A stretch of 64,000 nucleotides of DNA, from NCBI RefSeq assembly GCF_022095675.1, contig NZ_JAHYSG010000052.1, positions 1 through 64,000 of the forward strand. The letters are read 5' to 3'. This stretch comes from Dactylosporangium sp. AC04546 (GTDB lineage: Bacteria > Actinomycetota > Actinomycetes > Mycobacteriales > Micromonosporaceae). Below are positions 43,205 through 64,000 of the stretch, piece by piece. Below the pieces are notes generated by a model, which did no database searches, was not told the origin of the DNA, and saw only the letters and a list, made by a program, of their open reading frames with translations. Positions within the stretch are counted from its first letter, which is position 1. Each line of letters opens with the position of its first letter. Position numbers and translations under genes: made by a program.

Positions 43205-44506
43205 CTACTGAACGGGGGCAGTCATGGGCAACCCATTCTCCACAGCGGTGTAGAGGCGCTGCGGCCGCAGGAGGTCCTCGACGGTGTCGCGGACCCGGAT
43301 CAGGTACGACCGGCCGCCGTCGACGAGGACCTCGGCGGGATGGCCGTGGCTGAGGAACAACACCGGCGACGCGCTCGGCCCGTAGGCGCCCGACCGGAAG
43401 ATGCCGATGAGGTCGCCCGGGCGTACCGGCGGCAGGTCGACCGCCTTGCCCAGCGTGTCGCTCGGCGTGCAGAGCGGGCCGGTGACGTGCCACGACTCGG
43501 TGGCCGGCGCGTCGCGGCGGTTGAGCACCGCCATCGGGAAGTTGCGCTTGACGAACGAGCCGATGCCGACCGCCGCCATGTGGTGGTTGGTGCCGCCGTC
43601 GGCGACCGCGAACCGCTCCCCCATCGACGTCTTGGTCCCGGTGACCCGCACGACGTAGGTGCCGGCGGTCGCGGCGAGGTACCGCCCCGACTCCAGCAGC
43701 AGCCGGGTGCCCGGGTGCCGGTCGGCGAACGCCGCCACCACCGGGTTCAGCCGCTCGGTGAGCAGCACCGGGTCGAGGTCGCGCTCGCCGTCGAAGTAGG
43801 CGACGCCGAGGCCCCCGCCGACGTCGACGAGCTCCAGCGGGAAGCCGCACCGGGCGGCGACCCGCTCGGCCAGCTCGAAGATCCGCTCGGTGTTCTCGAC
43901 GATGACGTCCTCGCTGAGGATCCGGGTGCCGACGTACGCCTGGACCCCGATGACCCGCACGCCCGGGCGGCGCAGCAGGTCCGGGCCGAGGTCGAGGACC
44001 TGCTGCTCGTCGATGCCGAACTGGCGCGGCTTGCCGCCCATCGTCAGGCCGGAGCCGCGCACCGAGAAGGCCGGGTTGACCCGCAGCACGACCGGGGTGA
44101 CGACGCCGGCGGTGCGGGCGATGCCGTCCACGAGGTCGATCTCGGGCACCGACTCGCAGACCACGGCGGCCAGGCCGGCCCGGACGCAGGCGGTGAGCTC
44201 GGCGACGCTCTTGCCCGGGCCGAGGAAGATGACGTGCTCCGGCGGGATCCCGGCCCGCTGCGCGGTGACCAGCTCGGCCAGCGACGAGATCTCGGCGCGT
44301 GCGCCGAGTGAGCCGAGCAGCGCACAGATCGACAGGTTCGGGTTGGCCTTCAGCGAGAAGAAGATCTCCATCGCCGGGTGCAGCGCGGCGCGCAGCGTGC
44401 CGAACCGGTGGCGCAGTTCGTCGCCGTCGTAGAGGTACATCGGCGTGCCGTAGCGCTCGGCCAGCTCGCCGATCGTGATGCCCTGCACGGTGTGCTCGCC
44501 GGTCAT
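43205..44506 (-). CDS. Group III PLP-dependent decarboxylase (DapDC/ornithine decarboxylase-like)
   Basis: A 433-residue alanine-racemase-fold decarboxylase. The PLP lysine is in IFFSLKANPNLSICALL, the glycine-rich phosphate loop in LELVDVGGGLGVAYF, the beta-domain ESGRYLAATAGTYVV and the active-site cysteine in VTGPLCTPSDTLG, with GAYGPSASPVLF near the end. The family decarboxylates diaminopimelate, ornithine, lysine or acyl-linked amino acids. Its ATG overlaps the stop of the upstream ATP-grasp gene (ATGA), so ligation and decarboxylation are probably successive steps of one pathway. Confidence 0.9.
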   Translation of the reverse strand: MTGEHTVQGITIGELAERYGTPMYLYDGDELRHRFGTLRAALHPAMEIFFSLKANPNLSICALLGSLGARAEISSLAELVTAQRAGIPPEHVIFLGPGKSVAELTACVRAGLAAVVCESVPEIDLVDGIARTAGVVTPVVLRVNPAFSVRGSGLTMGGKPRQFGIDEQQVLDLGPDLLRRPGVRVIGVQAYVGTRILSEDVIVENTERIFELAERVAARCGFPLELVDVGGGLGVAYFDGERDLDPVLLTERLNPVVAAFADRHPGTRLLLESGRYLAATAGTYVVRVTGTKTSMGERFAVADGGTNHHMAAVGIGSFVKRNFPMAVLNRRDAPATESWHVTGPLCTPSDTLGKAVDLPPVRPGDLIGIFRSGAYGPSASPVLFLSHGHPAEVLVDGGRSYLIRVRDTVEDLLRPQRLYTAVENGLPMTAPVQ

Positions 44507-45870
44507 GTGGTGGTCCTCTCGGCCAGGCCGGCGAGCCGGCGGGTCAGCTCCTCGTCGATGGCCTCCGCCTCGGTCGCGGTACCGGCGACGAGCAGGGCGT
44601 AGAGCCGGCCGTCGAACGGCTTGCCGCCCTCGCCGGCGGCCGCGTTGACGGTGGCGAAGTTGTTCACGATCGCGCCGCTGCCGCCGGCCCGCGCCGGCAG
44701 AAGGTCGGCGATCGCGCCGCGCAGCTCGGCGTACGAGACCGGGCGGCCCAGCCGCAGCGGGTACTGCCGGGCCAGGGCCGCGCCGCCGTCCGGCACGCAC
44801 GCCTCCTGCAGCCGCACCTGGTAGGTCGACATGTTGCTGCGGGCGTTGATCTCGATGACCGGGAACAGCCGCTCGTCGTCGCCGACCAGCGCGTCGACCC
44901 CGGCGACGCCGTGGTAGCCGTCGGCGGCGAGGGCCGCGCCGATCGCCTCGGCCGCCGCCCGCACCTCGACCAGCTGCGCGGCGTCGAGCCGGGCCGGCAT
45001 GCGGTGTCCCTTGTGGACACCGTTGGCGGTGAGCGCCTCCTTGACGAAGTCGAACCGCGGGGTACCGTCGCGGCCCACGGTGACCTGGTAGTTGAGGTCG
45101 GCCCGCTTGCCGACCCAGGTCTCGACGACGAGCGTGAGCCGGTCGTCGCCGCGCCGCTCGGCCCGCTCGTGCAGCTTCCGGTCGAGCCGCAGCAGCATCG
45201 GCTCGTCCCGGACCGTCATGATGCCCTTGCCGGACACCCCGAACGCGTCCTTGACCACGACGGTCCGGCCGGCGGCCAGCAGCGCGCGGGCGGACTCGGC
45301 CGCGGCCCGCCACTCCTGCAGGGTCGTGCAGGTCCAGCCGTCCGGCTGGCGCAGCCCGAGCCGGTCGGCGAGCCGCCGGCTGTAGATCTTGCTGTTGACC
45401 GCCTTGCACACGGCGGCCGGGCTGCCCGCGATCCCCAGGCCGGTCGCCTCGGCCAGCTGCTCCTCCAGGGCCGAGACGCCGTGCGGGAGCAGTCGGGCCC
45501 CGCCCGGCGCGAGGGCCCGGAGCCGGCCGAGCAGCACCGGGTCGGCGAGCGCGTCGGCGGTGACCACGCGGGCCGGGTCGCCGTCGCCGGCGGCGAGCAC
45601 GCGCGGCAGGTCGAGGCCGAGCCGGGCCAGGTCGTCGAGGTGGTCCGGGTCGGGCGCGGCCTTGAGCACCACCGCGTCACCGCCGCCGGCGAGCAGCAGC
45701 GCGAACTCGTCCATCCGGTGCACCATCGCCGCGGAAGTGCCGAAGGCGTAGCGGGGCAGCCCCGGCTCGCCCTCCGCCCAGCGGTCCTCGACCTCGAAGT
45801 TGCCGACGAAGACCAGGGGCGTGGCGGCGTCCCCGGTCGTCGCCCGCTTGAGCCGGGGCAGGAATGGCAT
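44503..45870 (-). CDS. ATP-grasp ligase with preATP-grasp domain
   Basis: A 455-residue protein. Residues 1-140 resemble the preATP-grasp domain (VFVGNFEVEDRW; LLPHGVSALEEQLAE). The ATP-grasp part follows: SKIYSRRLADRLGLRQPDG, the phosphate-binding VVVKDAFGVSGKGIM, and the metal-binding FPVIEINARSNMSTYQV. Relatives join carboxylates to amines with ATP, for example amino-acid or peptide ligases of natural-product pathways. It is divergent from the nucleotide-sugar dehydrogenase, with 155 bases between. No clear Shine-Dalgarno sequence is seen. Confidence 0.87.
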   Translation of the reverse strand: MPFLPRLKRATTGDAATPLVFVGNFEVEDRWAEGEPGLPRYAFGTSAAMVHRMDEFALLLAGGGDAVVLKAAPDPDHLDDLARLGLDLPRVLAAGDGDPARVVTADALADPVLLGRLRALAPGGARLLPHGVSALEEQLAEATGLGIAGSPAAVCKAVNSKIYSRRLADRLGLRQPDGWTCTTLQEWRAAAESARALLAAGRTVVVKDAFGVSGKGIMTVRDEPMLLRLDRKLHERAERRGDDRLTLVVETWVGKRADLNYQVTVGRDGTPRFDFVKEALTANGVHKGHRMPARLDAAQLVEVRAAAEAIGAALAADGYHGVAGVDALVGDDERLFPVIEINARSNMSTYQVRLQEACVPDGGAALARQYPLRLGRPVSYAELRGAIADLLPARAGGSGAIVNNFATVNAAAGEGGKPFDGRLYALLVAGTATEAEAIDEELTRRLAGLAERTTT

Positions 45871-46025: not shown

Positions 46026-47321
46026 ATGCCCGACCAGCAGACCATCACTGACCGCTACGACGTCGCGGTCGTCGGCCTCGGCTACGTCGGGCTCCCGCTC
46101 GCCGGGCTGTTCGCCGCCGCGGGCGTGCGGGCACTCGGGGTCGACACCGACCCGGCGGCCCGGGCCGCGGCGGCCCGCGGCGAGCCCGGGTTCTTCGAGC
46201 CCGGCCTGCCCGGCCTGCTGACGCGGAGCGGGCTCGAGCTGGCCGGCGCCCTGCCCGCGCAGCCGCCGGCCGCGGTGGTCATCTGCGTCGGCACCCCGGT
46301 CGACGAGGAGACCCGCACGCCGGACCTGCGCCAGCTGGTCGCGGCGACCGAGCACGTGGCCGCCCACCTGGGCCCGGACACGCTGGTCGTGGTGCGCAGC
46401 ACGGTGCCGGTCGGCACCTGCCGCACGGTGGTCCTGCCGATCCTGCGCCGGGCGGTGGACCAGCCGCTGCTGGCGTTCTGCCCGGAGCGGACGATCCAGG
46501 GCCGGGCGGTGGCCGAGATCCAGCAGCTGCCACAGGTGATCGGCGGGCTCGACGAGCGGTCGCTCGAACGGGCGCGCGAGCTCCTCGCGCCGCTGGCCGC
46601 CGACCAGGTCACCGTGTCCTCGCTGGAGGCGGCCGAGCTGGTGAAGCTCGCCTGCAACGCGCACACCGACCTCATCTACGGCTTCGGCAATGAGCTGGCG
46701 ACCATCGCCGAGCACCTCGGGCTCGACGCGCACGAGGTGATCCGCGGGGCCAACCTGCGCTACCCGCGGCCCGACCTGGCCCGGCCCGGGTTCGTCGGCG
46801 GCAGCTGCCTGACCAAGGACCCGTACCTGCTCGCGCACAGCGCCCGCGCGGCCGGCTACGAGCCGCCGATGGTCGCCGCGTCCCGGGCCGTGAACGAGGC
46901 GGTACCGGTGCGCGCGGCCCGGCGGGTCCTGGCGGCGCTGGCGGGTCGGGCCACGCCGGTCGCCGAGTGCACGGTGCTCGTCTGCGGGGTCGCCTACAAG
47001 GGCCGCCCGGAGACCGACGACGTGCGCGGCGCCGCGTCGGTGACGATCGCCCGCGAGCTGGGCCCGTGGGTGGGCCGGCTGCTCGGCCACGACCCGCTCG
47101 TGCCGGCGGCCCGCATCGCCGCGGCCGGGCTGGAGCCGGTCGCCCTGGCCGACGGCCTGCGCGCCGCCGACGCGCTGGTCGTGCTCACCGACCACCCGGC
47201 GTACGCCGGCCTGACCGCCGACGTCGTCCGGGCGCCCGTGGTGTTCGACATGTGGAGCGTGCTCGCCGACCGGCTGCGCGACGCGCCCGGTGTCGTGTAC
47301 CTCGAGCTCGGCCGTGGCTGA
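46026..47321 (+). CDS. Nucleotide-sugar 6-dehydrogenase (UDP-ManNAc/UDP-glucose dehydrogenase family)
   Basis: A 431-residue dehydrogenase. The NAD-binding motif is VAVVGLGYVGLPLAGLFAAAG; ICVGTPVDEETRTPDL, VVRSTVPVGTCRTVV and FCPERTIQGRAVAEI follow; the catalytic cysteine is in FVGGSCLTKDPYLLA. The C-terminal domain has VAYKGRPETDDVRGA. ERT after FCP is closer to the WecC (UDP-N-acetylmannosaminuronate) branch. It oxidises C6 of an NDP-sugar to the uronate. GGAGG precedes the ATG. It overlaps the glycosyltransferase gene by eight bases. Confidence 0.9.
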   Translation: MPDQQTITDRYDVAVVGLGYVGLPLAGLFAAAGVRALGVDTDPAARAAAARGEPGFFEPGLPGLLTRSGLELAGALPAQPPAAVVICVGTPVDEETRTPDLRQLVAATEHVAAHLGPDTLVVVRSTVPVGTCRTVVLPILRRAVDQPLLAFCPERTIQGRAVAEIQQLPQVIGGLDERSLERARELLAPLAADQVTVSSLEAAELVKLACNAHTDLIYGFGNELATIAEHLGLDAHEVIRGANLRYPRPDLARPGFVGGSCLTKDPYLLAHSARAAGYEPPMVAASRAVNEAVPVRAARRVLAALAGRATPVAECTVLVCGVAYKGRPETDDVRGAASVTIARELGPWVGRLLGHDPLVPAARIAAAGLEPVALADGLRAADALVVLTDHPAYAGLTADVVRAPVVFDMWSVLADRLRDAPGVVYLELGRG

Positions 47322-48375
47322 GGCCCGGCGCCGGATCCTCACCGTCTTCGCCGGCCTCCCCGGCGGCCAGACATCGGGTGCGCAGCGCATGGCGTGGCGC
47401 ACCACGGCCGCCCTCGCCCGCCGCGGCCACATCGTGGCGGTGCGGACCGACGCGGCCCCACCATCCGAGGTGGACACCGCATTCGCCGAACCGGCCGGCT
47501 TCGTCCCCGACGTCGTGCACGCCTACGACCTGGCGCTGCCCGGCGCGGTGGTGCTGGCCCGGGACCTGGCCCGGCGCTGCGGTGCCGTGTTCGTCCTCAC
47601 CCCCGCGTCGGCGCCGTCGGTCTGGCCGGACGTGGACCTCGGGGCCCGGCTGTGCGCCGCCGCCGAGGCGCTCTTCCTGCTCACCCCGGCCGAGGCGGCG
47701 GCGCTGCGGGCGTTCGGCGCCGACCCGGCCCGGCTGCGGACCCTGCCGTCGGCGCCCGATCTCGCCGGCCGCCCGGACCCGGACGGCTTCCGGGCCCGCC
47801 ACGGCATCGCCGGCCCACTGGTGCTGTTCCTCGGCCGGCGGGTGGCGACGAAGGGCTACCGGGTGCTGCTCGACGCCGCGCCGCGGGTCTGGGCCGACCA
47901 TCCGGGCACGACGTTCGCGTTCGCGGGCCCGTACGCCGAGCCGGGGGCCGCGGCGGCGTTCGCGGCCGCCGACCCGCGGATCCGCGACCTCGGCGTGCTG
48001 GACGAGCAGGCCAAGCATGACGCGCTCGCCGCCTGCGACGTGTTCTGCCTGCCCACGTCGGCCGACGTGTTCCCGCTGGTCTTCGCCGAGGCGTGGAGCC
48101 TGGCCCGGCCGGTGGTGACCGGCCGGTTCCCGGGGGTGCGCGACGTGGTCGGCGACGGCGTCGACGGCCTGGTGGTGGCGGCGCGGGCGGCCGACGTGGC
48201 GGCGGCCGTGGGCCGGTTGCTGGCCGACCCGGCGCTGCGGGCGGCCCTGGGCGCCCGGGGACGGGCCCGGGTCGCGGCGACGATGGGCTGGGACCGGGTC
48301 GCCGCCGCGGTGGAGGCCGGCTATCCCGGGTACAGGACCACCTTCAGCGCGCCGCCGCGGTCGAACAGGTCGTAG
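47314..48375 (+). CDS. GT4-family glycosyltransferase
   Basis: About 353 residues with the GT-B fold. The N-terminal RILTVFAGLPGGQTSGAQRM is an acceptor-side loop; LVLFLGRRVATKGYRVLLDA starts the donor domain; the donor-binding motif is LPTSADVFPLVFAEAWSLARPVV, an E-x7-E-like GT4 signature. It would transfer the sugar oxidised by the preceding dehydrogenase. The GTG at 47314 within GTGGCTGA is chosen; an ATG at 47290 is an alternative. The last 55 bases overlap the convergent dehydrogenase gene. Confidence 0.88.
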   Translation: MAEARRRILTVFAGLPGGQTSGAQRMAWRTTAALARRGHIVAVRTDAAPPSEVDTAFAEPAGFVPDVVHAYDLALPGAVVLARDLARRCGAVFVLTPASAPSVWPDVDLGARLCAAAEALFLLTPAEAAALRAFGADPARLRTLPSAPDLAGRPDPDGFRARHGIAGPLVLFLGRRVATKGYRVLLDAAPRVWADHPGTTFAFAGPYAEPGAAAAFAAADPRIRDLGVLDEQAKHDALAACDVFCLPTSADVFPLVFAEAWSLARPVVTGRFPGVRDVVGDGVDGLVVAARAADVAAAVGRLLADPALRAALGARGRARVAATMGWDRVAAAVEAGYPGYRTTFSAPPRSNRS

Positions 48376-49355
48376 GCCGCGGGCGCCTCGTCCAGCGGGA
48401 ACCGGTGCGACACCAGCGCCGCCGGGTCGAGGCGGCCCGAGCTGATGAGCTCCAGCGCCGGCGCCCGGTCGGCGATCGGGTCCCCCACGACGAACCGGAC
48501 CGTCAGCTCCCGCGCGAACCCCGTCCCGGTCGGCAGCGGCGCGTCGGTGGCGTGGTGGGCCCCGACGACGGCGATCCGCCCGCGCGGCCCGGCCACCAGC
48601 ATCGCCTGGGCCAGGGCGGCCGGAGAGCCGACCGCCTCGACCACCGCGTCGGCCGGTCCGCCGGAGGCGGCGAGCGCGTCCGCGAGGCCGTCCGGGGCGA
48701 CCGCCGCGAACCCGAGCGCCTCGGCCGCGGCCCGCCGGGCCGGCAGCGGGTCGGCGACGACGACCCGGGCCGCGCCGGCCTCCCGGGCACACATGGCGCT
48801 GAGCAGGCCGACCGGGCCACCGCCGACGACCGCGACCGACTCACCGGGCGTCACCGAGGAGCGCCGGATCGCGGTGTGCGCGGTGGTGAGCGTGTCGCAC
48901 ACGAACAGCGCCTGCTCGGGGGTCACCGACGCTGGGCGGCGGGCCAGCACGTACGCGGCGTGCGGCACCAGCACCAGGTCGGCCTGCCCGCCGTCGACGG
49001 CGGCCCCGACGACGGTGGAGTAGCCGAACAGCGTCGCCGACGGGCACTGGTAGTGCCAGCCCCGGGCGCAGACCCGGCAGGTACCGCAGCTGATGAGGTC
49101 GGACGCGAACACCTCGTCGCCGGGCCGGTGGCCGGCGTCGGCGCCGGCGGCGACCACGGTCCCGACGAACTCGTGGCCGAGCACGGTGCCGGGCGCGAAG
49201 CCGGGGATCTCGCCGCGGTACGGGTGCAGGTCGGTGCCGCAGATCGCCGCGCAGGTGACCCGCACCAGCGCGTCGCCGGGCCCGCACCGGGGCGGCTCGG
49301 GCAGGTCGCGGCGCACCCGCACCCGCCGGGGTCCCTCGTACACCACACCGCGCAT
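48321..49355 (-). CDS. Zinc-dependent alcohol/sugar dehydrogenase
   Basis: A 344-residue MDR enzyme with both zinc sites: catalytic CAAICGTDLHPYRGEI and GHEFVGTVV; structural CGTCRVCARGWHYQC. The NAD-binding region reads VAVVGGGPVGLLSAMCAREAG. It oxidises an alcohol, possibly a sugar or cyclitol hydroxyl, with NAD+. It is the last gene of the operon beginning at 55303, three bases after the glycosidase gene. Its 3' end overlaps the convergent glycosyltransferase by 55 bases. Confidence 0.9.
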   Translation of the reverse strand: MRGVVYEGPRRVRVRRDLPEPPRCGPGDALVRVTCAAICGTDLHPYRGEIPGFAPGTVLGHEFVGTVVAAGADAGHRPGDEVFASDLISCGTCRVCARGWHYQCPSATLFGYSTVVGAAVDGGQADLVLVPHAAYVLARRPASVTPEQALFVCDTLTTAHTAIRRSSVTPGESVAVVGGGPVGLLSAMCAREAGAARVVVADPLPARRAAAEALGFAAVAPDGLADALAASGGPADAVVEAVGSPAALAQAMLVAGPRGRIAVVGAHHATDAPLPTGTGFARELTVRFVVGDPIADRAPALELISSGRLDPAALVSHRFPLDEAPAAYDLFDRGGALKVVLYPG

Positions 49356-49358: not shown

Positions 49359-51176
49359 TCAGCCCTCCACGTTGACGATCGCCCAGTCCTTGCCCGGCAG
49401 CGCCACGCGCCGGGTCGCGCCGGACGGCCGGCGCAGCTCGGTGTCGGCCGGGGTGGCCCGGTGGTTGACCGCCAGCACCGCGCCCGGCGGCTCGACCAGC
49501 GCCACCAGCTCGACGTCGGGGTCGTCGCACGAGACGTCGGGCACGACGCCGGCGCCGGCCGCGACCGTCGCGTACCAGGCGTGCCAGGGCGCCGCGTCGA
49601 GGCGGTGCGGATGGTCGAGCAGCCGTTCGAGGGGCAGCGGCGCGAAGTAGACGGTGCCGGCGCCGGCCCGGTTGCGCAGCAGCGCGGGTGCCCCGTCGGC
49701 GAACGTCGCGAGCACCTCCGCGGTCGTCGGGCGGACCTCGGCCAGCAGCTCGCCCGCCGGGACGCGCACCGGCCAGGTGACGCCGGCCCAGGCGAACTCG
49801 CGCGGCCCGCCCTCGGCAAGCGCGAAGTCGACGAGCTCGGCGCCGGCGAGGGCCGCGCCGGGGAAGCCGTGCAGGTGGTCGTCGAGGGTGAACCAGACGG
49901 TACCGCCGGCGCGGACCACGGCGTGCAGGCGGTCGAGGTCGGCCGCGGTCACCTGCTGTACCGAGGGGCAGATCACCACGTCGTAGCCGGTGAGGTCGCC
50001 GGTCACCAGGTCGCAGCGCAGGTGGGCCCGCTTGAGCAGCAGGTAGGCGTAGAACGTGGCGAGCGCCGGCCCGGCCGGGTCGAGGTACGAGGCGGCGCCA
50101 CCCGACGGCGGCGGGCCGCCGGCGAAGAGCGCCACCCGGGCCCGGCCCGGCGCCGGGCGCAGCGCGGCCGCGTGCCGGGCCAGCCGTCGCACGGCGGCCA
50201 TCCGCGGCTTCGGCACACCGTCCACATCGGACAGCCCGGCGAACCGCTCCATGGGCCGGGCGTCGTAGGGCTCGGCGGTGGAGGCGACGTCCTGCCAGCA
50301 CCAGTAGATCGCGCCGAGCCCGCCGCCGGCGAGGCACGACGCCGTGCTCGCGGCGAGGTGCCCGGTCGCGACCGCCTCGTCGGTGCCGTAGCTGCCGAGC
50401 TCGTCCACGAGGGACGGCCGCCAGGCCGACGCGTACCAGGCCGCGAACGCCGCCAGGTGGCTCGCCTTCACCGCGCGGGTCGACTCGACGCTGCCGGGCG
50501 ACCAGGTGGGGAACGCGTGCACGGCGGTGACGTCCAGCCCGCCGGTGCGCCGCACGTCGAAGGCCGACGGGCCGAAGACCGCGCTCGCGTCGTTGGCCTG
50601 GCAGACCAGCGTCCCCGGGGCGGCGGCGCGCACCGCGTCGGCGAGCGTGCGCCGCCAGCGCTCGACCTCGGCGACCGTCAGCCCGGCCGCCTCGGCCGGG
50701 TCGACGTTGCCGATCTCGTCGCCGAGGTCGACCAGGAGCAGCGCGTCCGCGCCGGCGAGGGCACCCGCGACGGCGCCGGCGTAGCGGGCCTGCGCCGCCA
50801 GCAGGTCCGGGTCGCGCCACAGGCTGCGGCCGCGCCGCCAGGGCGGGTCGAGCCGCTGGCCGTTCATCCAGATCGTGACGAGGGACAGCACGCAGGCCAG
50901 GCCGTGCCGGCCGGCCGCGTCGACCGCCCAGCGCACCCGGTCGAGCACGGCCGGGTCGAGGCGGCCCTCGTCCGGTTCGGCGTCGCGCCAGAACAGGAAC
51001 AGGCGCACGGTGTTCAGCCCGGTCGCGGCGATGGCGGCGAAGTCGTCCTCGACGGCCTTCGGCGCCCAGTCCCGCCACAGCTCGCAGCCGGCGGCGGCGG
51101 GCCAGTAGGTGACGCCGAGCGGGGTGAACGGCGCGCCGTCGCGGGTCAGGCGACCGTTGTCGATGTGGTACGTCAC
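49359..51176 (-). CDS. Clan GH-A glycosidase-like protein of unassigned family
   Basis: A 605-residue protein. It starts directly with a TIM-barrel (FTPLGVTYWPAAAGCELWRD; LNTVRLFLFWRDAEP). The expected acid/base pair is LVDLGDEIGNVD, with DE where clan GH-A enzymes usually have NE; the nucleophile position is LVDELGSYGTDE. A second domain (about 335-500) resembles the beta-galactosidase trimerisation fold (VALFAGGPPPSGG; VVICPSVQQVTAADLDRL). No signal peptide. The start GTG overlaps the aminotransferase stop (GTGA). Its place inside a sugar-nucleotide operon suggests trimming of an intermediate. Confidence 0.8.
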   Translation of the reverse strand: MTYHIDNGRLTRDGAPFTPLGVTYWPAAAGCELWRDWAPKAVEDDFAAIAATGLNTVRLFLFWRDAEPDEGRLDPAVLDRVRWAVDAAGRHGLACVLSLVTIWMNGQRLDPPWRRGRSLWRDPDLLAAQARYAGAVAGALAGADALLLVDLGDEIGNVDPAEAAGLTVAEVERWRRTLADAVRAAAPGTLVCQANDASAVFGPSAFDVRRTGGLDVTAVHAFPTWSPGSVESTRAVKASHLAAFAAWYASAWRPSLVDELGSYGTDEAVATGHLAASTASCLAGGGLGAIYWCWQDVASTAEPYDARPMERFAGLSDVDGVPKPRMAAVRRLARHAAALRPAPGRARVALFAGGPPPSGGAASYLDPAGPALATFYAYLLLKRAHLRCDLVTGDLTGYDVVICPSVQQVTAADLDRLHAVVRAGGTVWFTLDDHLHGFPGAALAGAELVDFALAEGGPREFAWAGVTWPVRVPAGELLAEVRPTTAEVLATFADGAPALLRNRAGAGTVYFAPLPLERLLDHPHRLDAAPWHAWYATVAAGAGVVPDVSCDDPDVELVALVEPPGAVLAVNHRATPADTELRRPSGATRRVALPGKDWAIVNVEG

Positions 51177-52315
51177 GCCGTCAACGCCGCTCGGACGGCG
51201 TGCACGACGTGGTCGGCGTCGGCGTCGCTGAGCAGGGCGTGCAGCGGGAGGCTCACCAGCCGCCCGGCGAGCGCGTCGAGGACGGGCAGGGGCCGCCCGG
51301 TGCTGCGATAGCGGCGGCGGTACAGCGACATGTGGTGGATCGGCTGGTAGTGCACGGACGTCTGGACGCGGTTGCGCCACAGCGCGGCCCGGAACGCGTC
51401 CCGGTCGGCGCCGTCGGGCAGCAGCACCGGGAACAGGTGGTGGGCCTCGTCCGGCTGCGCCGCCGTGCCCGGCAGGCCGAGGCCGGGCACGTCGCCCAGC
51501 CCGGCGCGGTAGCGGGCGGCCAGCGCCGCGCGCCGCCGCCGCTCGTCGGGCAGCCGGCCGAGCTGGACCCGGCCGATCGCCGACGCGATCTCGGTCGGCC
51601 GGTAGTTGAGGCCGACGTCGTCGACGTCGTAGCTCGCAACCGCGTCGGTGCTGCGCTCCCAGGTGGCCCGGGTGAGGCTGTGCGAGCGCAGCCGGCGGAT
51701 GCGCGCCAGGCGGCCCGGGTCGGCGGCGACGACCATGCCGCCCTCGCCGGTGGTGAGGTTCTTCGTGGCGAAGAAGCTGAAGCAGCCGACGTCGCCGACG
51801 GTGCCGAGCGCGCCGGCCGGGTGGGCCACGACGGGCGCGTGGGCGGCGTCCTCGACAAGCGCGACGGGCGTGCCGGCGAGCAGGTCCCGCAGCGCCGTCA
51901 GGTCGGCCGCCCGGCCGGCGTAATGGGTCGCGACGACCGCGCGGACCGCGGGGTTGAGCAGCCGGGCGACGTCCGCCGGGTCGATCGTGAGGTCGTCGGC
52001 CGAGCGGACGTCGGCGAAGACGGGCGTGGCGCCGTGCAGCGCGACGACGGCGGCCCCGGCGACGAACGTCAGGCTCGGCACGATCACCTGGTCGCCGGGG
52101 CGCAGGTCGAGCGAGAGCATCGCGAGGTGCAGCGCGGCGGTACCGCTGGACACCGCGACCGCGTCGCCGACACCGAGGGCCGCGGCGAACTCCAGCTCGA
52201 ACGACCGGGTGACCGGGCCGGCCGACAGCCAGCGCGAGCGCAGCACCTCGGTCACCGCCGCGATCTCCGCGTCGCCGACGGTGGTGTCGGCCAGCATGAT
52301 CATCGCCTCGCTCAT
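51173..52315 (-). CDS. DegT/DnrJ/EryC1/StrS sugar aminotransferase
   Basis: A 380-residue PLP enzyme. Motifs: TVGDAEIAAVTEVLRSRWLS at the N-terminus, VSSGTAALHLAMLSLDLRPG, EDAAHAPVV with the PLP-binding aspartate, and the PLP lysine in CFSFFATKNLTTGEGGMVV. It transfers an amino group from glutamate to a keto-sugar nucleotide. The ATG at 52315 overlaps the preceding epimerase stop (ATGA), and its own stop overlaps the glycosidase start. It indicates an amino sugar product. Confidence 0.92.
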   Translation of the reverse strand: MSEAMIMLADTTVGDAEIAAVTEVLRSRWLSAGPVTRSFELEFAAALGVGDAVAVSSGTAALHLAMLSLDLRPGDQVIVPSLTFVAGAAVVALHGATPVFADVRSADDLTIDPADVARLLNPAVRAVVATHYAGRAADLTALRDLLAGTPVALVEDAAHAPVVAHPAGALGTVGDVGCFSFFATKNLTTGEGGMVVAADPGRLARIRRLRSHSLTRATWERSTDAVASYDVDDVGLNYRPTEIASAIGRVQLGRLPDERRRRAALAARYRAGLGDVPGLGLPGTAAQPDEAHHLFPVLLPDGADRDAFRAALWRNRVQTSVHYQPIHHMSLYRRRYRSTGRPLPVLDALAGRLVSLPLHALLSDADADHVVHAVRAALTA

Positions 52316-57047: not shown

Positions 57048-57323
57048 ATGGACGACGTCATCGCCGCGTGGCCGGCCGAATTCGAGGCGCTGCTGCGCGA
57101 GCAGCTGCACGACCTGCCACGGCACGACCCGATCCCGGCCGGCACGTCGCTCATCGAGCTGGGCCTGGACTCGCTCGGCGCGGTGTCGCTGATCACCGAG
57201 GCCGAGGAGGCGTTCGGGGTGTCCTTCGGCGAGGAACTGCTCGACCCGCGGTTCTTCTCCTCGGCGGCCCACCTGTGGTCCGTCGTCGAGCGCCTGCGGG
57301 CCGAGCAGGGCGTGACGGCTTAG
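57048..57323 (+). CDS. Acyl/peptidyl carrier protein 1
   Basis: A 91-residue carrier protein. The phosphopantetheine serine is in IELGLDSLGAVSLI (about residue 43). It probably receives the aminoacyl adenylate from the enzyme encoded immediately upstream, with GAGGAGG before the ATG. Its last four codons and stop lie within the left arm of the terminator-like palindrome, so the insertion at 57320 begins at its stop codon. Confidence 0.92.
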   Translation: MDDVIAAWPAEFEALLREQLHDLPRHDPIPAGTSLIELGLDSLGAVSLITEAEEAFGVSFGEELLDPRFFSSAAHLWSVVERLRAEQGVTA

Positions 57324-57526: not shown

Positions 57527-58153
57527 CTAGACCAGGCCGATCTTCATCGCGGTCACCACTGCGGCGGTGCGGTTGGGCGCGCCGAGCTTGATGAGCACGG
57601 CGCTCACCAGGCGCTTCGCGCCGTGCGTGGAGATGCGCAGGTTGCGGGCGATCTGCTTGTTGCTCAGGCCGACGGCGAGCAGGCCCAGCGTCTCGGCCTC
57701 GCGGGCGGTGAGGCTCACGGCCCGGGACTGCCGCTCCGGGATGCGGGCCTGCCCGCCGGTCAGCAGCCGCCGGGCGAGGTCGCCGGGCATCGGCAGCTCC
57801 CCGCGCAGCGCGCGCTCCAGGGTGTCCTCGAGAACCTCCGCCGACAGGCTGTCGACCGACACGAATCCGTCGGCCGGGAGGTCGGGGTCGAGGTCCACGG
57901 CGTCCGCATCGAGCAGCACCACCACGAGCGGCCGGTCGGGCGGCTCGCCGGCCAGCTCGAGCGCGCGCCACCGGCGGCCGGCGACCAGCAGGACGTCGAC
58001 GTCCCCGGTGGGCTCGCCCTCGCTGAGGACGCGCGTGGCGCAGCCGATGCGGTCCAGCAGAAGCCGGAGCCCGCCGCGCAGCACCTCGCTGTCGACCAGC
58101 AGGCCAGCGGTGATCTTCGTGATGTCCGGAAGTACGTCCCCCGTCGGCGGCAA
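57527..58153 (-). CDS. LuxR-type regulator with degenerate receiver-like domain
   Basis: A 208-residue regulator. The C-terminal helix-turn-helix is clear (VSLTAREAETLGLLAVGLSN, then ARNLRISTHGAKRLVSAVLIKLGAP). The N-terminal 120 residues look like a receiver fold (GLLVDSEVLRGGLRLLLDRI), but the phosphorylatable aspartate position reads VDVLLVAGRR, so phosphorylation is unlikely. It starts at a TTG at 58153 with AAGGGAG upstream. Located between the adenylation/carrier genes and the ketosynthase operon, it is probably the pathway-specific regulator. Confidence 0.83.
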   Translation of the reverse strand: MPPTGDVLPDITKITAGLLVDSEVLRGGLRLLLDRIGCATRVLSEGEPTGDVDVLLVAGRRWRALELAGEPPDRPLVVVLLDADAVDLDPDLPADGFVSVDSLSAEVLEDTLERALRGELPMPGDLARRLLTGGQARIPERQSRAVSLTAREAETLGLLAVGLSNKQIARNLRISTHGAKRLVSAVLIKLGAPNRTAAVVTAMKIGLV

Positions 58154-58365: not shown

Positions 58366-59175
58366 TCAGCCGGGCGGCGCGCCGCCCACGGTGACGGCCG
58401 CGAAGCGTCCCGCGTCCGGGCAGTAGTCGGCGACCACGGTCCGCCCGCCGGACCCGAGCACCCCGGCGAGGACGCTCCAGACGCCCGTCGCGGGCAGCCC
58501 GGCCGGGGCCGGCAGCACGGTGACCGCACCGTCGCCGCGCACGGCGTCCGCCGCGGCCGGGGCAAGCCCCCGGCCGAGGATCAGCGTCACCGGCCCCGCG
58601 CCCTCGGCCAGCGCGCGGAGGCGGGCCGTGGCGGCGGGCGGCGTGAGCGGCTCCGGGCCGTGGACCGTCACCGGGGCACCGGCCGGCGCCGCGTCGAAGA
58701 GCACGGCTACCGCGACGTTGCGGGTCGCCCGCAGCCGCTCGGGCACGGGCTCGTCGTGGTGGACCGTGCGCTGGTCCGCCACCAGCAGCGCCGCCCGCGC
58801 CGCCGGGGAGGCGCGCAGGCTGTGGGCGATGATCCGCAGCGCGGTGAACGGCCCCGTGGCACCCTGGTCGCAGATGCCGAAGGCGTGCCCCACCTCGGCC
58901 ACGCTCGCGAGGTAGCTCGTCGGCCAGCCGGGCTCGCCGTCCGGGACCGCGGCGGCCAGCACCGCCAGGTCCACGGGGCCGGCCAGCCGCGGGGCCAGCT
59001 CGCCGAGCAGCTCGCGGAACGACGCGCGGCGGGCCGTCGCCAGCCGCGCCGGCACCGGCACGCTGAACGAGCCGAGCAGGTCGGTGAAGTAGTCGAGCTC
59101 GTCGGCCGTGAACGGCTCCCGCTCGGCCAGCGAGACGACCTCGACCGACCGCAGCGCCAGCGGCACGGTGGACAC
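58366..59175 (-). CDS. Degenerate FabH-like ketosynthase partner (Cys to Ala)
   Basis: A 269-residue thiolase-fold protein. The stretch FGICDQGATGPFTALRIIAH corresponds to the KAS III nucleophile region, where the cysteine is replaced by alanine (GATG), and no His or Asn active-site segment is recognisable. It is shorter than KAS III enzymes (about 320). It is the third gene after an intact KAS III and a carrier protein, so it is probably a non-catalytic subunit, as PqsB is to PqsC or a chain-length factor is to its KS. GTG start, six bases after the carrier stop. Confidence 0.7.
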   Translation of the reverse strand: MSTVPLALRSVEVVSLAEREPFTADELDYFTDLLGSFSVPVPARLATARRASFRELLGELAPRLAGPVDLAVLAAAVPDGEPGWPTSYLASVAEVGHAFGICDQGATGPFTALRIIAHSLRASPAARAALLVADQRTVHHDEPVPERLRATRNVAVAVLFDAAPAGAPVTVHGPEPLTPPAATARLRALAEGAGPVTLILGRGLAPAAADAVRGDGAVTVLPAPAGLPATGVWSVLAGVLGSGGRTVVADYCPDAGRFAAVTVGGAPPG

Positions 59176-59181: not shown

Positions 59182-59427
59182 TCAGACCCGGGAGCGGGCG
59201 GCGACGTACCGGGCCAGGGTCTCGACGGACTGGAAGTCGTCCGCCTCCAGCGTGTCCGGGTCGAAGTCGAAGTCGAGGTCCGTCTCCAGCTGCATGAGCA
59301 GTTCGAGGATGGTCGTGGAGTCGAACCCCAGGTCCTCGAAGAACCGGCTCTGCGCCGTGATCGACGACGGCGCGCGGCCGACCATGACCGCGGCGGAGTC
59401 GATCACCTTCGCGACGACGTCCTGCAT
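59182..59427 (-). CDS. Acyl carrier protein 2
   Basis: An 81-residue acyl carrier protein. The phosphopantetheine serine is in FFEDLGFDSTTILELL (about residue 37). It is acidic and of standard length. It lies between the intact KAS III (18 bases upstream) and the degenerate partner (six bases downstream), so it is probably the dedicated carrier for that condensing enzyme. Confidence 0.92.
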   Translation of the reverse strand: MQDVVAKVIDSAAVMVGRAPSSITAQSRFFEDLGFDSTTILELLMQLETDLDFDFDPDTLEADDFQSVETLARYVAARSRV

Positions 59428-59445
59428 GCGTGATCCCTTTCTCGG

Positions 59446-60384
59446 TTAGTGCTCGAAGACCATGGCGGAGAAGGTGGCGCCCAGGCCGACGGCCGTCATC
59501 AGGTACCGGTCGCCGGGGCGCAGCCGGCCGGCCTGCCGCGCGTCGCGCAGGCTGACGAACGAGTCGGCGCCGAAGCAGTGCCCGTGCTGCGCCAGGTTGT
59601 CCAGGTGCAGCAGGTCCGTGCCGCGCAGCCCGAGCAGCTTGAGGATCCGCAGCCACGACATCCGGTTGACGTTGTGGGGCAGGATCAGGGCGAGGTCGGC
59701 CAGGCCCAGCCCGGCCGAGTCGAGTGCGGCCCGGACGACCCCGGCGAGCGTCTCCGCGTAGACCTCGGTGAACAGCGCGCTCGCCGCCGGGTCGAGCCAG
59801 GCGCCGCGGTGGAACTCGCTGCGGGTGCGGGTGGCGTAGCCGAGCACGCGGTCCCGTGGCCCGTCCAGCCCGACCAGGACGGCCGCGGCGGTCTCGCCCA
59901 TGACGCCGGTGTCCTCCAGCACCTTGGCCCGCGAGGTGAACGTCTTCTCGCCGGCGAGGATCAGCGCGAGCGCGTCCGGGTCACCGTCACCGGCCAGGAG
60001 CTTGCCGGCCAGGTCGACGCCGAGCAGCCCGGAGGCGCAGGCGTGCTGGGTCAGGCAGAATGCGTTGGCGTGGGCCAGGCCGAGCTTGCGGCAGGCGTCC
60101 TGCAGCGGGTTGGCCGGATAGGGCGCGACGATCGGCATCGTGCGCGCGTGCATGACGTACCGCACCCGGTGCTCCTGCCCGGCCAGCCCGCGCAGCTCGG
60201 AGGCGGCCCGGACGAGCAGGTCGGTCAGGTCGCCACCGGGGTCGACCCGGACCTCGCCGAACCCGAAGCACCGCTCGTGCACCTTGATGCGCGCCTCCGC
60301 GACGCCGAACGGGCGCAGGATGTCGCTCACGTGCACTCGCGACGGCGGCACGTAGCTGGCCACCTCGAGCAGCGCGGTCTTCAC
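59446..60384 (-). CDS. 3-oxoacyl-ACP synthase III (FabH-like) with atypical triad
   Basis: A 312-residue KAS III-family enzyme. The nucleophile cysteine is in LTQHACASGLLGVDL and the first histidine in LILPHNVNRMSW. Where FabH has the GN of GNTSAAS, this protein reads LAQHGHCFGADSF, so the asparagine is replaced by histidine. PqsC-type enzymes also work without the asparagine. The start is GTG 60384. It condenses an acyl donor with an acyl- or aminoacyl-carrier. It is first in the operon with carrier 2 and the degenerate partner. Confidence 0.87.
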   Translation of the reverse strand: MKTALLEVASYVPPSRVHVSDILRPFGVAEARIKVHERCFGFGEVRVDPGGDLTDLLVRAASELRGLAGQEHRVRYVMHARTMPIVAPYPANPLQDACRKLGLAHANAFCLTQHACASGLLGVDLAGKLLAGDGDPDALALILAGEKTFTSRAKVLEDTGVMGETAAAVLVGLDGPRDRVLGYATRTRSEFHRGAWLDPAASALFTEVYAETLAGVVRAALDSAGLGLADLALILPHNVNRMSWLRILKLLGLRGTDLLHLDNLAQHGHCFGADSFVSLRDARQAGRLRPGDRYLMTAVGLGATFSAMVFEH

Positions 60385-60508: not shown

Positions 60509-61921
60509 GTGCTCGATCTCACCACGACCACGGGGGCGGCCCTGCCGGTCCGCGACCCCGCGACCGGCGAAACGTTCGCCCACGTGCCCGACGACGGCCC
60601 GGCCGAGGCGTCCGCGGCGGTCGGCGCGGCCGGCGACGCGTTCGCCGGCTGGGCCGCCCGGCCGCACGCCGAACGGGCCGCGCTGCTGCGCGAGTGCGCC
60701 GCGGCCCTGCGGCCGCACGCCGGCGACCTGGCCCGGCTGCTGACCCGCGAGCAGGGCAAGCCGCTCGCGCAGGCCGCGGCGGAGGTCGGCCTCGCCGTCG
60801 ACTGGTTCGACCTGACGGCGGACCTCACGCTCGACCCGGAGATCGTCGAGGACGGCCCGGTCCACGTGACCGTCGGGCGGATGCCGCACGGGCCGGTCGC
60901 CGCTATCGCCCCGAACAACTTCCCGGTCATCCTCGCGGTCACGAAGGTCGCCCCGGCGCTGCTGGCGGGGAACACCGTCGTGCTGAAACCCTCCCCCGTC
61001 ACGCCGCTGACCACGCGGTACCTCGGGGAGATCCTCGGCGGCGTCCTGCCGGCCGGCGTCCTCACCGTGCTCACCGGCGGCCCCGCCCTGGGACCGGCCC
61101 TCACCGCGGACCCGCGGATCCTCCTGGTGTCGTTCACCGGCTCGGTCGAGACCGGCCGGGCGATCGCCGCCGCCGTCGCGCCCCGGCTCGCCCGCGTCGT
61201 GCTGGAGCTCGGCGGCAACGACGCCTGCGTGGTCCTGCCCGGCGCCGACCTCGACGCGGTCGCGCCGGCCGTGTACGCGGCCGCGATGCGCAACACCGGC
61301 CAGTTCTGCGCCGCCATCAAGCGCGTCTACGCCCACCGGGAGCAGGCCTCAGCACTGGCCGGGGCGCTGGCCGAGCTGGCGGCGAAGGCGGTCGTCGGCG
61401 ACGGCCTCGACCCGGCGTCGGAGCTGGGCCCGCTGACCGTGCCGGCCCAGCGCGACACCGTGGCGCGCATGGTGGCGCAGGCGTCGGCGGCCGGCGCGCG
61501 GGTGCTCACCGGCGGCGCCGCGCTCGACCGGCCGGGCAGCTTCTACGCCCCGACGGTCGTCGGCGACCTGCCGCCCGGGACCGAGCTGGAGCTGGAGGAG
61601 CAGTTCGGCCCGGTCATCCCGGTGATCGCCGTCGACGGCGTCGAGGAGGCCGTGCGCCGCGCCAACGGGACGCGCTACGGCCTGGGCGGGTCGGTGTGGG
61701 GCGACCCGGACGAGGCGCGGGCGGTCGCCGGGCGGCTCGAGTGCGGTACCGCCTGGGTCAACACCCACGGCGAGCTGCGGGCCGACGTCCCGTTCGGCGG
61801 GCACCGCTCGTCCGGCCTCGGCGTGGAGTACGGCTACTGGGGCCTGCTGGAGTACACCCGTATCACGGTGTGCCACGAACGGCGGACACCAGGAAGCTCC
61901 GCGGCAGCCCCGGCAGGTTGA
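60509..61921 (+). CDS. Aldehyde dehydrogenase of the cluster
   Basis: A 470-residue aldehyde dehydrogenase. The catalytic cysteine is in MRNTGQFCAAIKRVYAH, the glutamate in VVLELGGNDACVVL, and the cofactor loop in LVSFTGSVETGRAI; IAPNNFPVILAVTKVAPALL is the N-terminal signature. It probably oxidises an aldehyde intermediate of the pathway. The GTG at 60509 is the start. It is divergent from the KAS III operon (124 bases between), and its last 59 bases overlap the convergent methyltransferase. Confidence 0.9.
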   Translation: MLDLTTTTGAALPVRDPATGETFAHVPDDGPAEASAAVGAAGDAFAGWAARPHAERAALLRECAAALRPHAGDLARLLTREQGKPLAQAAAEVGLAVDWFDLTADLTLDPEIVEDGPVHVTVGRMPHGPVAAIAPNNFPVILAVTKVAPALLAGNTVVLKPSPVTPLTTRYLGEILGGVLPAGVLTVLTGGPALGPALTADPRILLVSFTGSVETGRAIAAAVAPRLARVVLELGGNDACVVLPGADLDAVAPAVYAAAMRNTGQFCAAIKRVYAHREQASALAGALAELAAKAVVGDGLDPASELGPLTVPAQRDTVARMVAQASAAGARVLTGGAALDRPGSFYAPTVVGDLPPGTELELEEQFGPVIPVIAVDGVEEAVRRANGTRYGLGGSVWGDPDEARAVAGRLECGTAWVNTHGELRADVPFGGHRSSGLGVEYGYWGLLEYTRITVCHERRTPGSSAAAPAG

Positions 61922-62720
61922 CCGGGTTGGCGCCGGCCGGCCAGCGCCCGAAGTCGGCGTCCGGCCGGCCCGGCTCGAGGACCGTCACGTCCGCCCAGCC
62001 GTTGGCGCGGACGAACCCGGCCGGGTCGTCAGTGCCGAACTGCCACGGGCTGCCGGCGTCGGCCAGCTTGCGCAGAAACGGGCGGGTGTACGGCAGCCGG
62101 AATACGCCGAGGCCGACCAGGTCGGCGGCGAGCCGGCTGCCCGGCGCGGACAGCGCGGCCATGGCCCGGACCACCTCGGCGGCGAGGGCCTCGGGCAGGT
62201 AGAAGAGCACGCCCTCGGCGAACCACAGCGTGGGCCGCGCCGGGTCGAAGCCGGCGTCGCGCAGCGCGCCGGTCCAGCCGCCGCCGAGGTTCGCCGGCAC
62301 CACCCGCCGCTCGCAGCGCGGCTCGGGCGCGAGCGGGGCCAGCCGGTCGGCCTTGTAGTCGAGCAGGGCCGGCTGATCGAGCTCGAACAGCACGGTGCCG
62401 GTCGGCCAGGCGAGCCGGAACGCGCGGCTGTCGAGCCCGGCACCGATCCCGACGACCTGCCGGGGCCCGCCCGGCGCGGCGATCGCCGCGACGACGGTGT
62501 CGTCGAACCAGCGGGTGCGGATCGGCAGGAACGGGTTGCCGTCGTCGGCCGCGTGCTCGGTGTGGAAGTGCTGGAGCAGCGCCACGCCGGTGGGTCCCGC
62601 GAGCACCTCGGCGAACGGGTCGGAGAACAGCCGGTCCGCGCGCCGGCTCTCGCGGGCACGGGCGGCGGCGGTCCACAGCGCGGTGTCGGCGACGCCACCG
62701 ACGGCTCGGGCATTGGTCAC
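61863..62720 (-). CDS. SAM-dependent O-methyltransferase (LCMT/PpmM-like)
   Basis: A 285-residue class I methyltransferase of the leucine-carboxyl-methyltransferase-like group. Motifs: ADRLFSDPFAEVLAGP, RTRWFDDTVVAAI, the SAM-binding VVGIGAGLDSRAFRL, VLFELDQPALLDYKA, and LWFAEGVLFYLPEALAAEVV. Relatives methylate polyketide hydroxyls or carboxyl groups. The GTG at 62720 gives the family N-terminus (VTNARAVGGVADTAL-like). It is divergent from carrier 3, with 127 bases between. Confidence 0.9.
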   Translation of the reverse strand: MTNARAVGGVADTALWTAAARARESRRADRLFSDPFAEVLAGPTGVALLQHFHTEHAADDGNPFLPIRTRWFDDTVVAAIAAPGGPRQVVGIGAGLDSRAFRLAWPTGTVLFELDQPALLDYKADRLAPLAPEPRCERRVVPANLGGGWTGALRDAGFDPARPTLWFAEGVLFYLPEALAAEVVRAMAALSAPGSRLAADLVGLGVFRLPYTRPFLRKLADAGSPWQFGTDDPAGFVRANGWADVTVLEPGRPDADFGRWPAGANPVNLPGLPRSFLVSAVRGTP

Positions 62721-62847
62721 CTGGCCGACGGTATCGACGCCGCCCGCGCAGCGGCATCGGTCCTTCCGGACATGGCCAACCGGGCATCTCGTCCGGGCGG
62801 CCGCTCGCCGATCCCGGCGCGCGGGCCGGGCCGACAGATTGGGACCC

Positions 62848-63117
62848 ATGACTGAGACCGACGTCGTCGCCCGGACGATGGGTGAGCTGTTGTCGGCACC
62901 GCCGCTGGAACCGGCCGACGACTTCTTCATCCGCGGCGGTGACTCGCTGCGCGCGGTGGAGCTCATCGCGCGCCTGTCCGCCGCGTTCCCGGCGCCGGAC
63001 GGGACACCGGACGAGAACCTCGGGGCGGCGCTGCTGCTGGTGCTGTTCGAGGACGCGACCCCGCAGGCGCTCGGCGACGCGGTCACGCGGCACCGCGCGG
63101 CGCTCGCCGCGGGGTGA
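62848..63117 (+). CDS. Peptidyl/acyl carrier protein 3
   Basis: An 89-residue carrier protein. The phosphopantetheine serine is in DFFIRGGDSLRAVELI (about residue 33); GGDSL is typical of NRPS-type carriers. The region after helix 3 has an insertion (PDGTPDENLGAALLL). Its stop overlaps the amidase start in a GTGA junction, so the two proteins are made together. Confidence 0.9.
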   Translation: MTETDVVARTMGELLSAPPLEPADDFFIRGGDSLRAVELIARLSAAFPAPDGTPDENLGAALLLVLFEDATPQALGDAVTRHRAALAAG

Positions 63118-64000
63118 CCGCTGCGCACTGGTGGCCGGCGGGCCGGGTCGCGGCGGCGATCGCCGGCGGCGAGCTGTCCGCGGCCGAGTACCTCGACCTG
63201 CTGCTCGACCGGGTCGCGCGGCTCGACCCCGGCCTGGAGCTGCTGGTCACCGTCGACGACACCGCCCGGGACCGGGCCCGCGCCGCCGACCGGGCGGTGG
63301 CCCGTGGCGAGCCGCTCGGCCCGCTGCACGGGGTCGCGCTGACCGTCAAGGACAGCCTGGCCACCGCCGGCCTGCGCACCACCGCGGGCAGCGCGCTGCG
63401 CCGCGACCACGTCCCGGCGGCCGACGCCCGTGCGGTGACCGCGCTGCGCCGCGCCGGGGCGATCGTGTTCGGCAAGACGAACCTGCCCGAGCACTGCGCC
63501 GACATCCAGGCCCGCAGCGTCTACGGCGTGTCCCGCAACCCGTGGGACCCGGCGTACAGCACCGGCGGCTCGTCCGGCGGCGGCGCGGGCGCGGTGGCCG
63601 CGGGCCTCACCCCGGTCGAGGTCGGCTCCGACGTGGCCGGCTCGATCCGCATCCCGGCCGGGTACTGCGGCGTCGCCGGGCACAAGCCGACCTACGGCAT
63701 CGTGCCGCTCGACGGCCACCTGCCGCCGTACCACCCGACGACCCCGGACGTGGTGGTCGTCGGGCCGCTCGCCCGCACGGTCGACGACCTGGAGCTGATG
63801 CTCGGGGTCCTCAGCGGGCCCGGCGGCCGGGACGGCTCGGCCTGGCGGCTCGACCTGCCGCCCGCCCGGCCGGTCCGGCGGATCGCGCTGTGGACCGGCG
63901 ACCCCGCGGTACCGACGGATCCCGAGATCGTCGCCGTCCTGCACGACGTCGCCGAGCGCCTCGGCAAGGAGGGGGTCGCGGTCGAGGAGGACGCGCCGCC
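63114..64000 (+). CDS. Amidase-signature enzyme (partial, runs off the window)
   Basis: The first 295 residues of an amidase-signature hydrolase are open to the window edge. The catalytic lysine is in GVALTVKDSLATAG, the bridging serine in YSTGGSSGGGAGAVAAG and the nucleophile serine in VGSDVAGSIRIPAGYCG. The full family length is about 450. It starts at GTG 63114 within the carrier-protein stop. Coupling to a carrier suggests release or transfer of a carrier-bound or amide intermediate. Confidence 0.9.
   Translation, partial: MTAAHWWPAGRVAAAIAGGELSAAEYLDLLLDRVARLDPGLELLVTVDDTARDRARAADRAVARGEPLGPLHGVALTVKDSLATAGLRTTAGSALRRDHVPAADARAVTALRRAGAIVFGKTNLPEHCADIQARSVYGVSRNPWDPAYSTGGSSGGGAGAVAAGLTPVEVGSDVAGSIRIPAGYCGVAGHKPTYGIVPLDGHLPPYHPTTPDVVVVGPLARTVDDLELMLGVLSGPGGRDGSAWRLDLPPARPVRRIALWTGDPAVPTDPEIVAVLHDVAERLGKEGVAVEEDAP

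Follow-up and report, generated by a model that had tools for sequence, protein, structure and literature searches.

The actinobacterium Dactylosporangium sp. AC04546 carries in its 13-Mb genome a biosynthetic gene cluster (g40-g65) that probably encodes one two-module pathway, in which an aminopyrrole acid would be joined to a (dehydro)-beta-alanine unit by a pair of proteins of the 3-oxoacyl-acyl carrier protein (ACP) synthase III (KAS III) fold, and whose product may belong to a so far undescribed kind of natural compound. The stretch of DNA studied, here called the window, has a length of 64,000 nucleotides and represents the first 64 kb of a contig of 83,681 bases (NCBI RefSeq assembly GCF_022095675.1, contig NZ_JAHYSG010000052.1). 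A first-pass annotation, made from the letters of the window alone, had regarded the genes from position 43,205 onward as a single biosynthetic cluster that includes both a KAS III pair and an aminoacyl-carrier step, a view supported by the present analysis. Extension to the right of position 64,000, as proposed there, revealed that the cluster, which begins at 43205 (g40), continues beyond the right edge of the window through g60-g65 to 71150 (end of g65). Genes were called by a codon-usage script, with approximate start codons, and families were assigned by Pfam and NCBIfam scans of the predicted proteins. Pfam upheld the families that had been read for the adenylation enzyme g50, the KAS III g55, the ATP-grasp ligase g41, the pyridoxal phosphate (PLP) decarboxylase g40, the nucleotide-sugar dehydrogenase g42, the GT4-type glycosyltransferase g43, the methyltransferase g57 and the amidase g59, and three carriers were recognized by their Ser motifs (GLDS in g51, GFDS in g54, GGDS in g58), as had been noted. 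The reported absence of modular non-ribosomal peptide synthetases (NRPS) and polyketide synthases (PKS) holds across g40-g65 in the Pfam scans, while the cluster genes g45, g52 and g56 were missing from the earlier list.

Two modules and a proposed pathway

The cluster is composed of two interleaved modules. Module A comprises seven genes (g55, g53, g41, g40, g54 and the pair g61/g62), and module B consists of g42-g47 and g49, probably together with g56. The pathway was drawn from gene content, homology, conserved linkage and active-site residues, from which its substrates, the order of its steps and its product are deduced. The products of g49, g47, g42, g46, g43, g45, g44 and probably g56 would convert a nucleotide sugar to 4-acetamidopyrrole-2-carboxylate, as for congocidine, the adenosine monophosphate (AMP) ligase g48 would load this pyrrole acid onto the carrier g58, acting as peptidyl carrier protein (PCP), and release of the pyrrole amine might fall to the amidase g59. 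Using the enzymes of module A, aspartate would be loaded by g41 onto the carrier g54, decarboxylation by g40 would turn aspartyl-g54 into beta-alanyl-g54, the pair g55/g53 would transfer the pyrrole-acyl group to the beta-alanyl amine, and desaturation by g61/g62 would yield the dehydro-beta-alanine enamide. The chain may be completed or capped by g60, g50/g51, g63 and the methyltransferases, and the product would be exported by g65.

The first-pass annotation knew of no described cluster with this combination of genes, and no account of it was found in the literature searched, which covered few subscription journals and not MIBiG, so that a published cluster may exist. It is also conceivable that the product is a known pyrrolamide with unpublished genes, such as pyrronamycin, and would itself not be new. 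Pyrronamycins are listed as pyrrole-amide compounds in excerpts of two papers (PMC4047045, PMC11640851), and no pyrronamycin gene cluster was found in the literature searched; however, the source is a Streptomyces according to a title in a reference list, and among the 11 loci that combine both modules only that of Streptomyces olivaceoviridis belongs to this genus. We consider this explanation unlikely, although it fares best among the alternatives.

Module A is a widespread cassette

The decarboxylase g40 (43205..44506, minus strand) is of the BtrK type: its best matches in the Protein Data Bank are two BtrK sequences (304 bits), followed by a diaminopimelate decarboxylase (180 bits), while the NCBIfam models TIGR03099 and lysA match below their cut-offs, and the PLP-binding Lys53 is kept in 81/81 aligned rows. 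The ligase g41 (44503..45870, minus strand) contains a PreAtp-grasp domain (PF18604, E-value 2.5e-17) and has a single weak solved relative (E-value 1e-4); it may be related to BtrJ. The acyl-CoA dehydrogenase g61 (PF00441/PF02770) has Glu369 in an EG motif shared by at least 95% of the 67 aligned rows, and we take this residue to be the catalytic Glu. Its partner g62 has no Pfam match, but the model of its family, for which a relative from D. vinaceum served as stand-in (mean predicted local distance difference test score (pLDDT) 91), has acyl-CoA dehydrogenases as its best folds (E-value 2.4e-6), including the steroid enzyme Tcur3481-Tcur3483, and g62 looks like the degenerate half of a dehydrogenase.

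To survey the module, 84,980 species, each represented by one genome, were scanned with an ATP-grasp ligase alignment, which resulted in 121 relatives. Among the best 80 of these 121, which were kept as named loci, a KAS III is present in 70, the decarboxylase in 69, the carrier in 67, the degenerate KAS III in 63, the dehydrogenase in 59, its partner in 55 and all seven genes in 52; with flanks of no more than 10 kb and several contigs that stop short, the gene absences are not firm. In 61 of the best 80, KAS III, ligase, decarboxylase and carrier follow one another directly in this order. Module A is a widespread actinobacterial cassette, and of 200 genomes from the window's own family 47 have a KAS III relative and 24 have the ligase. 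In loci without a g50 relative, KAS III is still accompanied by the ligase, decarboxylase and carrier. This makes it more likely that the amino acid on the KAS III carrier is loaded by the ATP-grasp ligase, and decarboxylated on that carrier, than that it is loaded by the adenylation enzyme, as had been suggested earlier; we infer that aspartate is loaded by g41. Two side observations concern this cassette. Nine Amycolatopsis loci (L086, L090, L096, L097, L099, L101, L109, L111, L119) have the ligase and lack the other six module A genes, and their neighbors, judged by eye, are type II PKS, diaminopropionate-type and NRPS genes. Furthermore, the source genome contains a second KAS III with a carrier and a degenerate partner (G000:C44:75912-76829; L050), beside a 445-amino acid (aa) protein 28% like g60, with no ATP-grasp ligase or decarboxylase in 17 kb.

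The seven genes appear to match, by analogy, the bolagladin route and the route proposed for the autucedines. For bolagladin (bolO, bolC, bolN, bolM/bolP, bolQ), excerpts of the published account describe a proposal in which aspartate is loaded on a carrier and decarboxylated by a BtrK-like enzyme, the beta-alanyl amine is condensed with an acyl group by a KAS III homologue and the unit is desaturated; deletion of the BtrK-like bolN abolished the product and deletion of the dehydrogenase gene bolQ led to beta-alanine in place of dehydro-beta-alanine, which backs the decarboxylation and desaturation steps (PMC7756342). The cluster shares with it the BtrK-like decarboxylase, the free ACP, KAS III homologues and the acyl-CoA dehydrogenase, but its dehydrogenase has a second, degenerate half and its acyl group is probably a pyrrole, whereas that of bolagladin is a fatty acid (excerpts of PMC7756342). 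A dehydro-beta-alanine unit is also reported in the autucedine-type lipopeptides autucedine, enamidonin and olenamidonin, where a 3-oxoacyl-ACP synthase would ligate acyl chains to the ACP-bound unit; these are lipopeptides of Phe, two diaminopropionates and Gly, for which excerpts of the source report no aminopyrrole genes (PMC11204786). The likeness to the autucedine type was drawn from the published descriptions.

By sequence, g40 is also like BtrK of the butirosin genes btrI/btrJ/btrK. In butirosin, the corresponding unit is attached to an aminoglycoside, and neither a KAS III nor a dehydrogenase is known to take part. As in butirosin, carrier-bound glutamate might be converted to 4-aminobutyryl-ACP, and the linker would be 4-aminobutyrate or 4-aminocrotonate instead of beta-alanine. 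The name of the best solved relative of g40, L-glutamyl-[BtrI acyl-carrier protein] decarboxylase, speaks for this, but the cassette combines a dehydrogenase pair with a KAS III as in bolagladin, where aspartate is the proposed substrate of the BtrK-like enzyme, and we regard a glutamate-derived linker as rather improbable.

The KAS III pair

The KAS III g55 (59446..60384, minus strand; PF08541, C-terminal domain) is encoded next to the carrier g54 (59182..59427, minus strand; PF00550) and g53 (58366..59175, minus strand). The latter has no Pfam match, and its model (mean pLDDT 88) retrieved KAS III-type folds with Foldseek (best E-value 1.6e-9), in line with the degenerate KAS partner seen earlier. 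In an alignment of 91 KAS III rows, corresponding to 89 different sequences because some genomes are doubled (G185/L084, G193/L081, G115/L112), Cys116 and His237 of g55 are invariant (91/91), while BolM/BolP of bolagladin have Ser/Thr at the place of the Cys in excerpts of the source (PMC7756342). The position aligned with the FabH Asn is occupied by His269 in g55 and by His in all 91 rows. FabH requires this Asn for decarboxylative condensation. Replacement of the Asn by His makes acyl transfer the better guess for the pair on sequence grounds, and chain extension, which the first-pass annotation had assigned to it, was rejected.

Module B resembles a congocidine-like cluster

Module B starts on the plus strand with the nucleotide-sugar dehydrogenase g42 (46026..47321; TIGR03026 above cut-off) and the glycosyltransferase g43 (47314..48375; PF13692/PF00534). 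It continues on the minus strand in the tightly packed six-gene sugar operon g44-g49 that had been noted before, including its own AMP ligase: the zinc alcohol dehydrogenase g44 (48321..49355; PF08240/PF00107), the glycoside-hydrolase-like g45 (49359..51176; PF00150, PF08532), which serves as the module B marker, the DegT-family aminotransferase g46 (51173..52315; PF01041, E-value 4e-99), the NAD-dependent epimerase/dehydratase g47 (52312..53268; PF01370), the ligase g48 (53265..54578; PF00501) and the sugar-1-phosphate nucleotidyltransferase g49 (54575..55303; PF00483). The aldehyde dehydrogenase g56 (60509..61921, plus strand; PF00171) lies further to the right.

Searches for the marker g45 gave two matches in 296 genomes of the phylum, one of which is the window's own genome, and six in 392 presumed Streptomyces genomes. 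Relatives of g42, g43, g44, g46, g47 and g49 lie within the fetched stretch at all six presumed Streptomyces loci, with the g49 relative some kb away from the remaining block genes in G535 and G687. In one of the six, the congocidine-like locus G571, through which the cluster was compared with the congocidine/distamycin type (S. ambofaciens cgc, S. netropsis pya; excerpts of PMC4047045), each gene of the block is matched: g42 with 50%, g43 with 44%, g44 with 51%, g45 with 42%, g46 with 54%, g47 with 52% and g49 with 38% identity. Moreover, G571 has counterparts of g56 (60%), of the AMP ligase g48 (39% over 363 aa), of the free carrier g58 (62848..63117, plus strand; PF00550; 39% over 72 aa to the G571 PCP, E-value 1e-6), of the LuxR-type regulator g52 (47%) and of the free condensation (C) domain g60. 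Altogether, 12 of the 26 proteins g40-g65 have a meaningful G571 counterpart (29-60%); a thirteenth match, of g50 to the AMP ligase, is generic. Sugar-type enzymes are reportedly the makers of the congocidine pyrrole, according to the title of a 2012 study. By this analogy we infer that the sugar-type block makes 4-acetamidopyrrole-2-carboxylate, which is named among the congocidine parts in excerpts of the published work together with free C and PCP domains and the amidohydrolase Cgc14 (PMC4047045). The absorbance of pyrrolamides is given there as 297 nm. Two further observations were made on the block and its neighbors. A second PreAtp-grasp protein was detected by Pfam scan at L031:14231-15580, with counterparts in G034 and on contig C31 of Actinoplanes cyaneus (G883), and these proteins of three loci combining A and B are 42-44% identical to one beside the G571 genes. 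In addition, the aminopyrrole block stands in G535, G545 and G687 (L169-L170, L172-L173, L178-L179) beside adenylation-similar proteins of ~1050-1160 aa and without module A, which represents a third setting of the block.

These matches bear on the product suggested in the first-pass annotation, in which the adenylation enzyme would load an amino acid that the KAS III pair extends and that is then linked to an acylated amino sugar or uronate. The cluster does contain families of sugar-nucleotide enzymes and glycosyltransferases, and the adenylation enzyme adjoins a carrier, but the congocidine-like cluster carries the same sugar-type genes, the His at the FabH Asn position disfavors extension, and the other loci combining A and B have no match to g51 and a g50 match of at best 32% (an 869-aa protein in Pseudonocardia). 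An amino-sugar or uronate conjugate is very improbable and was rejected.

Association of the two modules

Modules A and B were found together at 11 loci from five families with varying gene orders, namely the window, G130, G034, G160, Sinosporangium album, Streptomyces olivaceoviridis, Pseudonocardia xinjiangensis, Lentzea aerocolonigenes, Micromonospora sp. ATCC 39149, Actinoplanes cyaneus (two contigs with A and B genes on each) and Marinitenerispora (one 8.9-kb contig with three A and three B genes). In Micromonospora sp. ATCC 39149 (L208, L209) the g45 relative consists of two overlapping pieces, one with internal stops, which is a frameshift or an assembly error. Among the 200 family genomes, g45 is present in four, each time within at most 12 kb of a KAS III relative, and three of the four also have the ligase, the exception being G160. 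Further genes are shared by loci combining A and B, as counted at those showing the respective gene: g48 (40-44%), g52 (43-61%), g56 (57-64%) and g59 (53-57%), together with g57 in G130, G034, G160, Sinosporangium and A. cyaneus (58-64%) and g60 in Sinosporangium (30%). S. silaceus has A genes with relatives of g48 and g58.

A tree of the 91 KAS III rows was used to trace this association, with 11 rows initially labelled as A+B, including S. silaceus and a second, long-branched copy of G160. The label requires four changes on the tree compared with a mean of 10.6 after shuffling, and none of 500 shuffles was as low. Ten of the 11 initially labelled rows fall into one 15-row clade (support 97/94). 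Two rows of this clade first counted as lacking B, from Lentzea and Micromonospora sp. ATCC 39149, proved, after the tree was made, to have g45 and g47 nearby; loci with g45 thereby account for 11 of the 15 rows, the others being S. silaceus, G188, G114 and G009. Such clustering in a single KAS III clade favors one joining event followed by later change, and falls short of proof. Independent occurrence of its subsets had been named in the first-pass annotation as evidence that would speak against a single cluster: A and B can each be found without the other, but the combination of the two is conserved as well. A chance contact of two unrelated clusters, which would be in line with A occurring without B (21 of 24 ligase-bearing family genomes lack a g45 match) and B without A (none of module A in the fetched 40 kb, 19 kb for G635, of the six presumed Streptomyces g45 loci), is the least credible explanation and was rejected, as module B is flanked in the window by genes of A to its left and right and the two modules recur in differing orders at 11 loci of five families within one KAS III clade. 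The more far-reaching reading, that these five families make pyrrole-(dehydro-)beta-alanine amides and that a KAS III heterodimer, not a C domain, joins PCP-bound aminopyrrole and ACP-bound beta-alanine, is put forward tentatively, its chances lying slightly below even.

Several findings weigh against the proposed two-module pathway. Aspartate is loaded in bolagladin by the VinN-like adenylating enzyme BolO (excerpts of PMC7756342), whereas the cluster has an ATP-grasp ligase beside the decarboxylase. Unlike the congocidine type, g40-g65 include no C-PCP protein of the Cgc18 kind, with g60 as the single free C domain, and no Amidohydro_2 protein like Cgc14, as g59 (63114..64478, in the window to 64000, plus strand; PF01425) belongs to another amidase family; the cluster adds KAS III, ATP-grasp ligase, decarboxylase and dehydrogenase pair. 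Because the C-PCP protein and the Cgc14-type amidohydrolase are absent, it is not filed as congocidine-type. Ten chosen genes of G571 were scanned (two C domains, PCP, Amidohydro_2, DHO_dh, nucleoside deoxyribosyltransferase, creatininase-like, methyltransferase, AMP ligase and ABC transporter), and the extra families among them, which we take to be 3-aminopropionamidine genes, have no member among g40-g65. Furthermore, g45 was not found in the genomes of S. silaceus, G188, G114 and G009, although their KAS III rows belong to the clade of the A+B loci. The dehydrogenase pair is absent in the 40 kb fetched for Pseudonocardia and for S. olivaceoviridis, and both ligase and dehydrogenase pair are absent in 60 kb of G160. 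The loading and desaturation steps are thus not universal, and these three are likely to have a linker that stays saturated or a different loader.

Remaining genes and flanking regions

The stand-alone amino-acid adenylation enzyme g50 (55491..57032, plus strand; TIGR01733 above cut-off) adjoins the carrier g51 (57048..57323, plus strand; PF00550). In a macrolactam route, a second adenylation enzyme adds alanine to a beta-aminoacyl carrier (excerpts of PMC11284099), and by analogy our guess is that g50 could act in a similar way. A specificity code of g50 read by hand pointed to a small polar amino acid and was too weak to be used. A proline-to-pyrrole route by an adenylation enzyme, a carrier and a dehydrogenase was considered early and dropped, because the dehydrogenase co-occurs with the BtrK-like module. 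The regulator g52 (57527..58153, minus strand; PF00196) and the LCM-family methyltransferase g57 (61863..62720, minus strand; PF04072) complete the part of the cluster within the window, and the part to its right (g60-g65, 64490-71150) encodes, besides g60 and the dehydrogenase pair, the transglutaminase-like g63, the O-methyltransferase g64 and the MATE exporter g65.

To the left of g40 lie a short-chain dehydrogenase/reductase-type gene, an HxlR regulator, a GT2 gene and a GH5 gene. As a group they were not found in 19 compared loci of other genomes, among which only G160 carries relatives of two of these genes (g36, g38). Outside the cluster, a sugar-binding transport protein adjoins an alpha-L-rhamnosidase (9791-13418), and two neighboring large proteins combine DUF4832 and fibronectin type III domains (29737-34570).

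Implications

If the proposed pathway is correct, the cluster would give genetic access to a branch of pyrrole-amides that has not been described, and some pyrrole-amides bind DNA. It would also present a pair of thiolase-fold enzymes that serves as aroyl N-transferase where an NRPS would use a condensation domain. Synthetic DNA-binding polyamides place beta-alanine between pyrroles, and a natural counterpart would therefore be of practical interest. The module A cassette, moreover, points to those among scores of actinobacterial clusters whose products may contain a (dehydro)-beta-alanine unit.

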